From assembly GCF_000287675.1 (NCBI RefSeq), contig NZ_ALJL01000016.1, positions 186,001-250,000 of the forward strand: DNA of 64,000 bases, written 5' to 3'. Positions within the stretch are counted from its first letter, which is position 1. Every line of letters begins with the position of its first letter. The DNA comes from Lachnoanaerobaculum sp. ICM7 (lineage in GTDB: Bacteria; Bacillota; Clostridia; Lachnospirales; Lachnospiraceae). The notes beneath the pieces are model-generated. The model was given only the letters and a program-made list of their open reading frames with translations. It made no database searches and was not told where the DNA came from. The position numbers and the translations under genes are program-made. Below are positions 58,401-63,364 of this stretch, in pieces.

Positions 58401-58440
58401 AAAAGAAAGAGCCCCGGCATTTGCTAGGGCTCTTCTTTTA
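58401..58440. terminator. Bidirectional terminator of feo and the GTPase-NYN gene
   Basis: AAGAGCCC (58407-58414) pairs with GGGCTCTT (58427-58434), with A and T flanks. The stem covers the stop of the minus-strand GTPase gene at 58424. Confidence 0.8.
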
Positions 58441-61033
58441 TACCAAGTCTGATGTTTTCGATTTTCTCTTTTAACTCTCCCTCTAAAGAATCAAACAATC
58501 TGTTTGTGATTGAGGCTTTTTCTATATGTTCTTTTCTGAAAGCCTCTTTGGTATCCTCAAGATCCTTTAAAAACTCCCTTGCAGAGATAAGTATTGCCCC
58601 CTTACCTCTTATAATGATCTGCTCTATACCGTCTGATGTAGCTACAGTGACATCATATCTTTTTATCATTTCATGTGTTGTCTTTTCTATATACTGATCG
58701 GCTGTTTCAGCTGTCTTTGTATATACCACATATACACCCGAGAAATTCTGTACCTCCGTAGGATGATTTACAAGTCTGTAGGCATCAAATACTGCAATTA
58801 TTTCGTAATCCTTATAAGCCTTGTAATCTATCAAAAGCTCTATAAGTCTGTCTCTTGCCGCATCTATATTTATCTGTGCAAGTTCATTTAACGACTTTGA
58901 AGCAAAAATAATATTATATCCGTCAACCAGCAAGTAATGTTTCTTTTTTGCTCTTTCTTTATAAACATACTCTCTTTCAGGTGCCCTCTTTACAGGTGCA
59001 TCCCAGTCTCCTATTCTTGGAGTCACCTTACCGTATGTTCTTTCAAATATGGCCATAAGCTCTTCGCTGTCGGCTTTTGTGGCATCATAGGTGGAACGTA
59101 CTGTCTCTATTTTTTCCTCTTCTTTTACAAGCTCAAACTTCTTTAAAGGCAAATGCATATAGTTAAATACTTCACTCCATGGCACTATAAAGCTCTCACC
59201 ATGAGAACAAAATACGGAGTCCGGAGTATTCTTTGTATCAAACTCTGCAATATACGAACTGCTCTCTATAATCTTATCCGCATTATGGCATGGTAAAAAT
59301 CCTCTTAGACCGAAGCCTATCTGTCCAAGACCTTTTGTATATGATAAAAGCGTACTTCCATAGTTTTGTATATTGACGGTAGGCGCATATCCCGTCACTC
59401 TGAGAGTCTCTCCACCCTCATAGCTTATATCCTCTGCATTCATATTGTTTAAATCATTTAAAAGCCTACCAAGTGAAGTCATAGGTATGTTTATTTCAAA
59501 ATCATAGTACGGCTCCAATAAAATCGATTTGGCATACATCAATCCATGCCTTACAGCTCGGTTTACCGCTTCAAGGAAATCTCCGCCTTCGGTATGCTTT
59601 TCATGTGCTCTGCCTGCTACCAAGGTAAGCACCACATCAGTAAGCTCACTGCCTGTAAGTACACCTCTGAATTTTGAGGTCTCAACAATATTTCTTACCT
59701 GACTCTGATAATTTTTAGGAAGCTCATCATCAGACACTTCATTCACAAATACTATGCCGCTTCCTCGCTCTCCTTCACTGATAAGTATATGCACTTCGGC
59801 ATAATGCCTTAACGGTTCAAAGTGCCCTACACCCTCAATATATCCGGTTATAGTTTCCTTATAAATAATACCGCCGTCTATAAGATCGCAGTTTAACCCA
59901 AGTCTCTCACCGATAATATTTTTTATAAGATCTATCTGAACTTCTCCCATCAAGTTTACCTTAATTTTAGCAAGTTCTTCGTCATACTCCATTTTTATTT
60001 CAGGTATCTCGTCAAATATCTGTAAAAGTTTAGGATATATTTGATTTATACTTATATCATCCGGAAAAACCATATTGTAGCTTAAAACCGGTAACAGCTT
60101 TTGTACAGGTCTTTTTATATCTCCAAATGTATCTCCGGCATGAACTTTTGAAAGCCCTGTTACTGCAATAATATCACCCGCAATTCCTTTATCGATTGCA
60201 ATATATTTTTCACCGTCATAAGCTCTTATCTGATTTATCTTTTCATCAAATAGCGTATCCTTAACCTGTAAACTTCCACCAAGAAGTTTTATAAAGGAAA
60301 GTCTGTTTCCGTTTTCGTCATATTTTATCTTATATATTATTCCGGAAATTTCATCCGAATAAGTCTTTTCATGTACATACTCTTTTATTAGTTCAAGTAT
60401 TCCTTCTATATTTATAAGTTTAAGACCGGAACCGAATATTGTAGGAAATACTTTTGAATTCTCTATACAAAAGCTTATATCCGATTTTGTTATTTCTTCC
60501 CCTTCGATAAACTTTTCTATAAGATTCTCATCACAGGCTGCAACCTCTTCTAAAAGCATCTTATTTTCCTTTGAAAAATCCACTATATTTTTTGAAAGAG
60601 ATTTTTTAAGGCCTTCCAATATTTTGTCCTTGTCAAACTTGTCACTGTCTATTTTATTTACAAATATTACAGTAGGTATATTTGCTTCTCTTAATAATCT
60701 GAAAAGTGTATGTGAATGTGATTGTACGCCTTCACTTCCGCTGATTACCAAAATAGCCATATCAAGTATGGATATGGTCCTTTCCATTTCGGCACTGAAA
60801 TCCACATGTCCCGGGGTATCAATTATATTTATATCTATATCATCTATACTTGTTCTGGCAAGCTTTGAGAATATGGTTATTCCTCTTTTTCTTTCATATT
60901 CATCATTATCTAAAAAGCTGTCACCGAAATCCACTCTTCCTGTTTTTCTAAGCTTTCCTGTCTTGTAGAGTATCGCCTCTATCAATGTAGTTTTTCCGGC
61001 ATCTACATGTGCCAACACACCAACATTTATCAT
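58424..61033 (-). CDS. TetM-like ribosomal GTPase fused to a Rae1/YacP-type NYN nuclease
   Basis: The 869-residue protein begins with an EF-G/TetM-like GTPase: G1 AHVDAGKTT (8-16), RGITI (50-54), G3 DTPGH (72-76), G4 NKID (126-129), with the later domains through about residue 640 as in ribosomal protection proteins. Residues 699-850 form a NYN/PIN-like nuclease (YacP/Rae1 type) with acidic residues Asp704 (VDGYN), Asp750 (FDAY), Asp779 (TADQY) and Asp801 (TSDG). It probably binds the ribosome and could cut mRNA. Whether it gives tetracycline resistance is open. Confidence 0.85.
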   Translation of the reverse strand: MINVGVLAHVDAGKTTLIEAILYKTGKLRKTGRVDFGDSFLDNDEYERKRGITIFSKLARTSIDDIDINIIDTPGHVDFSAEMERTISILDMAILVISGSEGVQSHSHTLFRLLREANIPTVIFVNKIDSDKFDKDKILEGLKKSLSKNIVDFSKENKMLLEEVAACDENLIEKFIEGEEITKSDISFCIENSKVFPTIFGSGLKLINIEGILELIKEYVHEKTYSDEISGIIYKIKYDENGNRLSFIKLLGGSLQVKDTLFDEKINQIRAYDGEKYIAIDKGIAGDIIAVTGLSKVHAGDTFGDIKRPVQKLLPVLSYNMVFPDDISINQIYPKLLQIFDEIPEIKMEYDEELAKIKVNLMGEVQIDLIKNIIGERLGLNCDLIDGGIIYKETITGYIEGVGHFEPLRHYAEVHILISEGERGSGIVFVNEVSDDELPKNYQSQVRNIVETSKFRGVLTGSELTDVVLTLVAGRAHEKHTEGGDFLEAVNRAVRHGLMYAKSILLEPYYDFEINIPMTSLGRLLNDLNNMNAEDISYEGGETLRVTGYAPTVNIQNYGSTLLSYTKGLGQIGFGLRGFLPCHNADKIIESSSYIAEFDTKNTPDSVFCSHGESFIVPWSEVFNYMHLPLKKFELVKEEEKIETVRSTYDATKADSEELMAIFERTYGKVTPRIGDWDAPVKRAPEREYVYKERAKKKHYLLVDGYNIIFASKSLNELAQINIDAARDRLIELLIDYKAYKDYEIIAVFDAYRLVNHPTEVQNFSGVYVVYTKTAETADQYIEKTTHEMIKRYDVTVATSDGIEQIIIRGKGAILISAREFLKDLEDTKEAFRKEHIEKASITNRLFDSLEGELKEKIENIRLGIKEEP

Positions 61034-61042
61034 GGACTTAAC

Positions 61043-61510
61043 CTATGTCAATGCGGCAAAACTTACAGGCACAAATTTTTCCAGCTCCTTTGGATCCATC
61101 TCAACCTGATAACCGATTTTACCTGCACTGAATATAATATTTTCATAATTCAAAGCTGTTGAATCAACTACAGTGGTAAATCTCTTTTTCATACCTATCG
61201 GAGAACAACCCCCATGTATATATCCTGTAAGAGGCAATAAATCCTTTGACTTCAACATTTCTATAGATTTTTCACCTACAGCTTTTGCCGCCTCCTTTAA
61301 GTTAAGCTCCTCTGCCACCGGTATTACAAATACATAGTTTGCCTTACTCTTTCCAACTGTTACCAATGTCTTAAAAACCGTTCTCTCATCCTGATTTAAG
61401 AGATTTGCAACTTCTACACCATTTGTAGCCGGAGTATCTATATACGAATAATGATTATACTTTATCTTCTTTTGATCCAAAAGTCTCATTACATTTGTTT
61501 TCTCATCCAT
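61043..61510 (-). CDS. ybaK: YbaK-type Cys-tRNA(Pro)/tRNA deacylase
   Basis: The 155-residue YbaK/EbsC protein hydrolyses mischarged Cys-tRNA(Pro). It has the conserved Lys in VFKTLVTVGKS, the GGCSPIGMKK motif and the AGKIGYQVEMDPKEL end. It lies nine bases upstream of the GTPase-NYN gene, so both may be one transcript with radA. Confidence 0.9.
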   Translation of the reverse strand: MDEKTNVMRLLDQKKIKYNHYSYIDTPATNGVEVANLLNQDERTVFKTLVTVGKSKANYVFVIPVAEELNLKEAAKAVGEKSIEMLKSKDLLPLTGYIHGGCSPIGMKKRFTTVVDSTALNYENIIFSAGKIGYQVEMDPKELEKFVPVSFAALT

Positions 61511-61534: not shown

Positions 61535-62899
61535 TCAATTTAAAAGTGAGACCGCTTCATTTATATTTCTTACACCTATAAGCTTTATATTTCCCTTAAA
61601 TGAAATCTTCTCAAGGCATACCATCGGTAAAATACAAATCTCAAATCCAAGCTTCATAGCCTCTCTAATCCTAATCTCAGGCATACTTACAGCTCTTACT
61701 TCGCCTGATAGTCCCACCTCTCCGAATATTACCGTCTTTTCATCTATTGTCCTGTTTTTCATACTTGAGATAAGCGACATAATAATTGACAAATCCAGTG
61801 CAGGCTCATTTATTCTAAGTCCACCCGCAATATTTATATATGCATCATATCTGCTCATTGCAAGTGCACATCTTTTTTCTATGACCGCCATCAAAAGATT
61901 TATTCTGTTCACATCTGTTCCGGTAGAAGTTCTCCTAGGTAGTCCGAATGCTGTAGGAACTACCAAAGCTTGTACTTCTACCAGTATCGGTCTTGTACCC
62001 TCCATTAAACATGCTACGGCCGCTCCTGTAGCATTCTGCGGTCTGCCGGATAGCATAAACTCTGAAGGATTTTTCACTTCTATAAGTCCCACCTGCTGCA
62101 TTTCAAATACACCTATCTCATTTGTAGATCCGAATCTGTTCTTGACAGCACGCAGTATTCTGTATGAAGCAAACCTGTCACCTTCAAAGTAAAGCACTGT
62201 ATCTACCATATGCTCAAGCACTCTCGGACCTGCAACCTGTCCTTCTTTTGTTACATGTCCGACTATAAATATGGCAATATTATTTTCCTTTGCCACCTGC
62301 ATTAATAGATTTGTGGATTCTCTTACCTGACTTACACTTCCCGGAGCCGACGCCACCTCTTCATTAAACATAGTCTGTATAGAGTCTATGACTACCACAT
62401 CCGGCTTTTCACTCAGCACGGTTTCTTTTATTATATTGAGATTGGTCTCACACAGAAAACTTAAATTTCCTGTGATTTCTCCCACTCTCTTTGCTCTCAT
62501 CTTTATCTGCTTTAAACTCTCCTCACCTGAGATATAAAGCACTGTTCTGTTATCATCCGATATATTCTTACAAACCTGAAGCAATAATGTGGACTTTCCA
62601 ATTCCCGGATCTCCACCTACCAAAACAAGTGAACCTCTTACCACTCCACCGCCAAGTACTCTGTCAAGTTCCTCAAAACCTGTCTTAAACCTGTCTTCAT
62701 CTTCCAGCTGTATTTCAGAAAGCTTAGCAGGCTTTTTATATGTATTTGCAGATATTCCTCTGCTTACCGTCTTTGTCTTTGCCACCGGCTCTTCCACAAG
62801 ACTGTTCCATGCCTTACACATAGGGCATTGTCCCAACCACTTTGGTGACTCATATCCACATTCTTTACAAAAGAATGCACTGGACTTTGCTTTTGCCAT
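61535..62899 (-). CDS. radA: DNA repair protein RadA
   Basis: The start is ATG 62899 (MAKAKSSAFFCKECG) with AGAAAGG before; an upstream ATG at 62953 has no ribosome site. The 454-residue protein has a zinc finger (CKECGYESPKWLGQCPMC), Walker A GGDPGIGKST, the RadA-specific KNRFGSTNEIGVFEM and a Lon-like C-terminal domain. It works in branch migration of recombination intermediates. Confidence 0.95.
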   Translation of the reverse strand: MAKAKSSAFFCKECGYESPKWLGQCPMCKAWNSLVEEPVAKTKTVSRGISANTYKKPAKLSEIQLEDEDRFKTGFEELDRVLGGGVVRGSLVLVGGDPGIGKSTLLLQVCKNISDDNRTVLYISGEESLKQIKMRAKRVGEITGNLSFLCETNLNIIKETVLSEKPDVVVIDSIQTMFNEEVASAPGSVSQVRESTNLLMQVAKENNIAIFIVGHVTKEGQVAGPRVLEHMVDTVLYFEGDRFASYRILRAVKNRFGSTNEIGVFEMQQVGLIEVKNPSEFMLSGRPQNATGAAVACLMEGTRPILVEVQALVVPTAFGLPRRTSTGTDVNRINLLMAVIEKRCALAMSRYDAYINIAGGLRINEPALDLSIIMSLISSMKNRTIDEKTVIFGEVGLSGEVRAVSMPEIRIREAMKLGFEICILPMVCLEKISFKGNIKLIGVRNINEAVSLLN

Positions 62900-62953
62900 A
62901 AAAACCTTTCTATTTAAAATGGGCATATCCGGCTTAGCGGTATGCCCATGCAA

Positions 62954-63364
62954 CTATCTTTTTTTGATTAAAACCTTTGATCCGTTCTCACTTAGCTCAA
63001 CACTAAATATAAGCTTACCTGATAGATTGGTCTTCATGCCTCCGATACTTACATCATCGACATAAACCTCATATTCTGTATCTTCTTCCAAACCAATAGT
63101 TATTTGAGTATCCCCAAAACCGTATATATTAAATGTAGTTAAATTTGGGGTGGTTTCAAATTCCATTACTGTACTACCCGGAACCGATTCATACACAAAA
63201 GCCGAATTTCTTTCAAGCTTTGTTATCTCCTTAAATGTCTTTACCTTATATACGTCCCCCTCATGTGCAAAATCTTCTACTTTTGATTTTGTACCAAGAA
63301 TATAATTTCCAAAACTAAGTTTACCATCCGCCTCTTTGCAAATCAGACTCTCTACTACAGGCAT
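62954..63364 (-). CDS. Conserved Lachnospiraceae-type small protein (often named endosialidase)
   Basis: The 136-residue protein starts MPVVESLICKEADGKLSFGN and continues with AHEGDVYKVKTFKEITKLER and FVYESVPGS. I recall homologues in Lachnospiraceae carrying the name endosialidase, but no catalytic motif of a sialidase is visible, so the name is not supported by what I see. It has no signal peptide. It precedes radA. Confidence 0.65.
   Translation of the reverse strand: MPVVESLICKEADGKLSFGNYILGTKSKVEDFAHEGDVYKVKTFKEITKLERNSAFVYESVPGSTVMEFETTPNLTTFNIYGFGDTQITIGLEEDTEYEVYVDDVSIGGMKTNLSGKLIFSVELSENGSKVLIKKR

Follow-up and report, generated by a model that had tools for sequence, protein, structure and literature searches.

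Domain architecture of the fusion gene

The 64,000-nucleotide stretch of DNA analyzed here, hereafter the window (Lachnoanaerobaculum sp. ICM7, family Lachnospiraceae; NCBI RefSeq assembly GCF_000287675.1, contig NZ_ALJL01000016.1, positions 186,001 to 250,000), carries on its minus strand, at 58424..61033, a single open reading frame of 869 amino acids in which an EF2-family translational GTPase is joined to a nuclease of the NYN_YacP family, the family of Bacillus subtilis Rae1. A first-pass annotation made from the sequence had described the first ~640 residues as an EF-G/TetM-type GTPase with intact G1, G3 and G4 motifs, and the C-terminal part as a YacP/Rae1-type NYN nuclease retaining its four acidic residues. 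Both halves of that description were borne out: a Pfam search with the 869-residue protein returned EF-G domains together with NYN_YacP, and the fusion of GTPase and nuclease is confirmed.

The GTPase part, like every feature of the gene on the minus strand, comprises a G domain (residues 2-220, 60374..61030; Pfam GTP_EFTU, E 4.9e-50), domain II (residues 229-303, 60125..60349; EF-G_D2), domain IV (residues 389-501, 59531..59869; EFG_IV) and domain V (residues 505-584, 59282..59521; EFG_C). The G1 (HVDAGKTT), G3 (DTPGH, including the catalytic histidine) and G4 (NKID) motifs are all intact, and together with domains II, IV and V they place the protein among the EF2-family translational GTPases; separate EF-G-like genes are present in the same genome. 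Pfam gave no EFG_III match at E 0.001, although the alignment of the structural model to EF-G runs through the domain III region (residues 1-594). Domain V is followed by a C-terminal extension (residues 585-630, 59144..59281; SVFCxHG ... YMH), delimited by alignment, which is common to fused and unfused members of the group and absent from the aligned Tet rows. A linker (residues 631-697, 58943..59143) leads to the NYN_YacP nuclease domain (residues 701-862, 58448..58933; E 2.4e-45, 154.9 bits against a Pfam cut-off of 24.6), which is the only NYN match in its own genome. The four acids of this domain are D704 (58922-58924), D750 (58784-58786), D779 (58694-58696) and D801 (58631-58633).

An AlphaFold2 model of the whole protein has a predicted local distance difference test score (pLDDT) of 73.7 and a predicted TM-score (pTM) of 0.45. 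Its top structural matches are to EF-G (8p2g, Z 32.7 over residues 1-594), and TetM on the ribosome (3j9y) aligns with Z 27.0 and a root-mean-square deviation (rmsd) of 8.4 over 592 residues. However, the score against the EF-G model TIGR00484 is low (240.7 bits against a cut-off of 659.4), which leaves the protein outside EF-G proper, and the tip of domain IV differs. Modeled alone, the nuclease half reaches a pLDDT of 81.5; its nearest solved structure by sequence is B. subtilis Rae1/YacP (5mq9, E 2.4e-20), which is also its nearest fold (Z 20.1, rmsd 1.8 over 135 residues, with the next unrelated row at Z 8.8). The domain thus resembles Rae1 (5mq8, 5mq9) in fold and in its four acids, with 38% identity over 135 aligned residues, but Rae1 consists of this domain alone, about 180 residues long, and its gene comes after rlmB, whereas here the domain lies at the C-terminus of a protein of 869 residues encoded at a different locus. 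In the linker, whose limits were taken from the model, pLDDT falls below 50 at residues 634-655 and 668-696, and one helix is predicted (653-667). The helix contains the motif ELMAIFERTY (residues 658-667, 59033..59062), possibly a docking element. A regular expression of the E-L-x-x-I-F-x-R-T-Y type recovered this pattern in 79 of 115 fused genes, missing the other 36, and in none of 2300 shuffled linkers.

The catalytic signatures are nearly invariant across the fused genes, as counted over 115 distinct sequences for the GTPase part and 122 for the NYN domain (genes with fewer than 130 residues of NYN match being omitted). D704, D750, D779 and D801 are conserved in 122/122 and E783 in 121; G13, K14, T15, D72 and H76 are kept in 114/115 (one gene is gapped there), as is N126, while K127 and D129 are found in all 115. 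Two signatures mark the tip of domain IV. The one, GHFEPLRHYAEVH (residues 403-415, 59789..59827), includes H404 (115/115) and H410 (114/115), the latter position being phenylalanine in nine of nine resistance-type Tet proteins. The other, GRAHEKHTEGGDF in loop III (residues 474-486, 59576..59614), includes K479 (110/115) and H480 (114/115), which align with Pro-509 and Val-510 of TetM; the resistance-type Tet proteins have proline in 7/9 and valine in 8/9 at these positions. Ratios of nonsynonymous to synonymous substitution (dN/dS) against two congeners are 0.046 and 0.075 for the whole gene. They are 0.083 (versus G001) and 0.036 (versus G003) for the GTPase part, and 0.064 and 0.056, respectively, for the NYN part, with dS versus G001 near saturation; the linker gives 0.19 versus G003 on few sites. 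The GTPase half and the nuclease half are both under purifying selection.

Distribution and ancestry of the fusion

The occurrence of the fusion was compared with that of stand-alone Rae1 in three overlapping genome samples: 98 relatives, 150 members of the gene's own family that are at least 90% complete, and 159 genomes from across the phylum. Fused status was taken throughout from open-frame length, and the GTPase was confirmed for the samples of 98 and 159 and for part of the 150. An NYN_YacP match is present in 85 of the 98 relatives, fused in 58 and stand-alone in 27 (as a frame of about 170-215 amino acids), the other 13 having none. A GTPase-part profile found the GTPase at the same place in all 58 fused relatives, 56 of which have the fusion in one frame and two (G047 and G096) with a frame break. 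In the family sample, 137 of the 150 genomes have the NYN domain, lying in frames of at least 690 amino acids in 125, alone in seven and in frames of intermediate length in five (G047, with its frame break in the linker, G288, G291, G265 and G329); the short frames of G288 and G291 fit genes cut by a contig end. The balance is different phylum-wide, with 12 fused genomes (GTPase confirmed in 12/12), 77 stand-alone and 70 without a match above the cut-off. In no genome of the three samples did we find a complete fusion together with a complete stand-alone Rae1. Second NYN matches are fragments: a relic in G079, a 139-residue piece at a contig end in G044, contig-end fragments in G272 and G355, and two pieces of one frame in G320.

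A chance or assembly fusion was rejected, as the architecture recurs across many independent assemblies. The genome scan kept 80 named loci, of which 79 have it, the remaining one being cut by a contig end; among the carriers in this set are Clostridium, Desulfosporosinus, Fusibacter, Anaerovorax and Intestinimonas records. The possibility that the gene is mobile or of phage origin was also considered, and two checks led to chromosomal-type or contaminant contexts. For instance, in a 'Bacteriophage sp.' record (MT835514.1) the fusion lies between genes reading as rsmH and gltX, and this record looks like a bacterial contig. The 252-kb plasmid of Agathobacter rectalis that carries a fused gene is a true exception to an always chromosomal location.

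The site vacated by the stand-alone gene can be recognized. In 13 of 19 stand-alone loci yacP directly follows rlmB, in the order cysS - RNase III-like gene - rlmB - yacP - sigma-factor gene, and the annotation of C. difficile has the same yacP-after-rlmB order. By contrast, none of the 30 fused-genome loci read has a yacP match beside rlmB, rlmB itself being found in all 31 of the fused genomes searched; three weak yacP matches (E 4e-4 to 6e-3) are internal to rlmB or to the RNase III gene. Between rlmB and the sigma-factor gene there are 12-60 bp in 15 of the 30 loci and 253 bp in one; the sigma-factor gene was not seen in 14, one of these loci breaking off about 420 bp beyond rlmB. In the genome of the window, an unrelated dehydrogenase-like gene comes after rlmB. 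The 253 bp gap (G092) contains no yacP-like reading that would make a second relic. G079, a further fusion-bearing genome, has 273 bp between rlmB and the sigma-factor gene, not enough to hold an intact yacP. This gap retains the first 30 yacP codons at 73% identity (L080:5310-5417), and on our reading the last ten codons are also present in another frame. Judging from the sequence, this fragment is a decayed copy of a gene made redundant by the fusion. Twelve C. difficile plasmid records also match NYN, and we examined one of them, a circular 96.6-kb 'plasmid' (NZ_CP149721); it carries a gltX-cysS-rlmB-yacP-sigH-tuf-rplK segment, chromosomal in kind, which may be an assembly matter or an odd replicon.

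Because there is one nuclease per genome, and because stand-alone yacP is lost where the fusion is present, the inference that the fusion replaced stand-alone Rae1 in a large bacterial family is well supported by these comparisons. The architecture itself is not new, contrary to what the first-pass annotation had implied. Tet proteins with a YacP-like NYN domain were reported from ten clostridial species by Atkinson 2015 (BMC Genomics 16:78, PMC4342817; this and the other papers given here by PMC number are cited from excerpts of their text), and the protein of the window matches them in architecture, having the same order of domains, a Tet-like EF2-family GTPase and then a YacP-like NYN, in Clostridiales. 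The excerpted report presents an acquired domain in ten species with a possible part in resistance, whereas we find the fusion to be widespread and present where Rae1 is missing. Listings of the open-licence literature, a search outside which Leroy 2017 and Condon 2018 fall, yielded no later work on the fusion. What is new here is therefore the evidence that a known but uncharacterized architecture is the working Rae1 of these bacteria.

In a GTPase tree of 80 rows, built by a quick method with supports from the Shimodaira-Hasegawa-like approximate likelihood-ratio test (SH-aLRT) and no bootstrap, the fused GTPases fall into a single clade (SH-aLRT 98), inside which one NYN-less member is nested; the members from the gene's own family pair with Dorea phocaeensis and Butyrivibrio. 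The sister clade (SH-aLRT 99) consists of nine unfused GTPases of 645-675 amino acids (one of them split), and a tenth branches outside. Nine of the ten genomes with these unfused sister GTPases have a stand-alone NYN, the tenth (G070) being 77% complete, and this pairing fits a Rosetta-stone argument for a shared pathway. Two further unfused Tet-like GTPases, from G117 and G159, score about 468 bits against the profile. Their grouping with Tet is weak (83), neither fits any of the tested groups well, and they possibly represent another uncharacterized subfamily. The nested NYN-less member, of 644 amino acids, is on a Ligilactobacillus salivarius plasmid (NZ_CP090412, L134:4521-6911), where its neighbors, on the other strand, are an rpsN (S14) gene and a gene for a small 'putative metal homeostasis protein'; perhaps this neighborhood has a link to zinc-poor ribosomes.

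Proposed action at the ribosome and its alternatives

In B. subtilis, Rae1 is an A-site mRNA endonuclease (PMC6613710, PMC12320835), and the suppression of an efp mutant by its loss (PMC6613710) links it to paused ribosomes. TetM-type GTPases place domain IV in the A site (PMC8161019, PMC4750697) and need GTP hydrolysis to leave the ribosome (PMC8161019). We propose, with a probability of roughly 0.65, that the gene described here is this lineage's Rae1 (YacP) in fused form, a GTPase-delivered A-site mRNA endonuclease of paused ribosomes. Its EF-G/Tet-like part would recognize a ribosome whose A site is paused or empty and bind at the factor site, with domain IV placed in the A site; the flexibly linked NYN nuclease could thereby reach the exposed A-site codon and cut the mRNA. 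GTP hydrolysis would then free the factor from the ribosome, and the truncated message would be left for trans-translation and decay. Such delivery of the nuclease fits the anatomy of the protein and the way in which unfused GTPases occur alongside stand-alone Rae1; that the protein binds ribosomes, that it cuts in the A site, what GTP hydrolysis does and which type of paused ribosome is involved are inferred. The link to Rae1 made in the first-pass annotation emerges much stronger than it was put there, as the fusion appears to replace the stand-alone enzyme. RelE, which is also treated in PMC12320835, and SmrB are likewise ribosome-linked mRNA cutters that feed rescue, but their folds are unrelated to that of the fusion and they are not known to have a GTPase part. 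A more specific version of the proposal, to which we would give slightly less than even odds, holds that a GTPase with its own endonuclease enters the A site of paused ribosomes, that it took over from Rae1 (yacP having been lost at rlmB in the fused genomes read), that it is mislabeled as tetracycline resistance, and that a conserved His/Lys/Arg tip of domain IV (H404, R409, H410, K479, H480) reads or clears the decoding center before the cut.

Atkinson 2015 suggests a resistance role for the acquired NYN domain, and on that proposal the fusion would protect the ribosome against tetracycline or another A-site drug, with the RNase adding to resistance. The best NCBIfam model for the protein is indeed tet_protect, its loop III has the same length as that of Tet(M) in the alignment, and the RefSeq name of the A. 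rectalis fusion is TetM/TetW/TetO/TetS family protein, the sole such record seen (the Monoglobus fusion is named translation factor GTPase family protein). Pro-509, at the loop III tip that lies in the drug site of TetM (PMC8161019), is not kept, K479 standing in its place; yet Tet(M) is still active when S508, P509 and V510 are all alanine (PMC4750697), so that the changed letters of loop III are not decisive and the difference alone cannot exclude drug release. The scores, however, are 385 bits against a cut-off of 775 for tet_protect and 270 against 1100 for tet_protect_M_W, while a Tet-type protein from G040, used as a positive control, which also bears the fusion, reaches 832 and 1247 with the same two models. 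The fusion shares the EF-G-like domain plan of Tet(M)/Tet(O), and over 90% of its length the GTPase part is about 30% identical to a plasmid Tet(M), but the fusion falls outside the Tet clade, the eight resistance-type Tet rows being separated from the fused rows by a branch with SH-aLRT 99, and it differs in having K479-H480 for P509-V510, the extra C-terminal extension and the nuclease. Moreover, it is near-universal in the family, and ten of the 58 fused genomes have a Tet-type protein besides it (by score and length, one having been checked against the cut-offs). An acquired resistance gene was rejected as the main reading on these four grounds of cut-offs, clade, near-universal presence and co-occurring Tet-type genes; the resistance label is probably wrong, the drug response that the first-pass annotation had offered as an option is disfavored, and we regard ribosomal protection as highly unlikely.

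It is also conceivable, though in our judgment unlikely, that the halves are joined only for joint expression, the NYN domain binding the ribosome by itself and acting as Rae1 normally does, and the GTPase having a separate task in translation, such as back-translocation or the clearing of stalled ribosomes. The long, mostly disordered linker, the nested member that has lost its NYN and the genomes in which a stand-alone NYN works without this GTPase would all agree with such an arrangement; against it stand the co-occurrence of unfused GTPase relatives with stand-alone NYN and the fact that much of the family has retained the fusion intact, with the linker helix motif in most of the genes. 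We give least credence to a nuclease that serves in growth arrest or stress by acting on A-site tRNA or decoding-center 16S rRNA. Such a GTPase would bring the nuclease near both, and rRNA RNase activity is mentioned in the excerpted text of Atkinson 2015 (PMC4342817); however, Rae1, its closest relative by both sequence and fold, is reported to cut mRNA in the A site (PMC6613710, PMC12320835), and no partner of toxin-antitoxin type was seen at the locus.

Several observations weigh against the fused, GTPase-delivered Rae1 that we favor. An NYN_YacP match is absent from 13 of the 150 family genomes (G009, G038 and G055 among them), so that the function of the nuclease is dispensable there or otherwise met. 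Eighteen genomes of the 98-relative sample have a stand-alone NYN without such a GTPase, and the nuclease thus does not need this GTPase in general; conversely, the NYN-less L. salivarius member nested among the fused ones points to a possible function of the GTPase apart from the nuclease. The 60-odd residues of mostly disordered linker are such that the model leaves the geometry of the two halves unfixed. All counts given here are uncorrected for the relatedness of the species sampled. Finally, in a tree of the NYN domain (171 columns) the fused domains are not one group, requiring five changes and grouping in 0% of 200 bootstrap trees; at least two of the five changes are forced by well-supported branches, and one fused domain (L177) pairs with a stand-alone one (L017). 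A single fusion event is favored by the GTPase tree but not by the NYN tree, and repeated fusion or domain exchange may have taken place.

If our proposal is true, a GTP-driven mRNA cutter of the no-go type would be contained in one bacterial polypeptide, in which the recruitment and timing of an A-site nuclease would be directly testable, and the lack of stand-alone Rae1 in many genomes of the family would be explained. It would also correct the resistance annotation of a near-universal family gene, named tetracycline resistance in one RefSeq record seen, a naming that could inflate resistome counts.

Genomic context

The first-pass annotation had placed the gene beside ybaK and radA and outside an obvious mobile element. 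Its first part stands: a gene for a YbaK-like aminoacyl-tRNA editing protein (61043..61510, minus strand; Pfam tRNA_edit) lies 9 bp upstream of the fusion gene, and a gene for a RadA-like ATPase (61535..62953, minus strand; Pfam KaiC/AAA_25 and a zinc ribbon) lies 24 bp beyond it, genes which we take to be ybaK and radA. Its second part stands for the adjacent genes, no mobile-element gene being seen among the immediate neighbors. No neighborhood conserved beyond the genus was found among 20 fused loci. Going by the spacing alone, the fusion gene may be co-transcribed with the RadA-like ATPase gene, and a further gene on the same strand (62954-63364), for a 136-residue protein of no Pfam family, abuts the latter.

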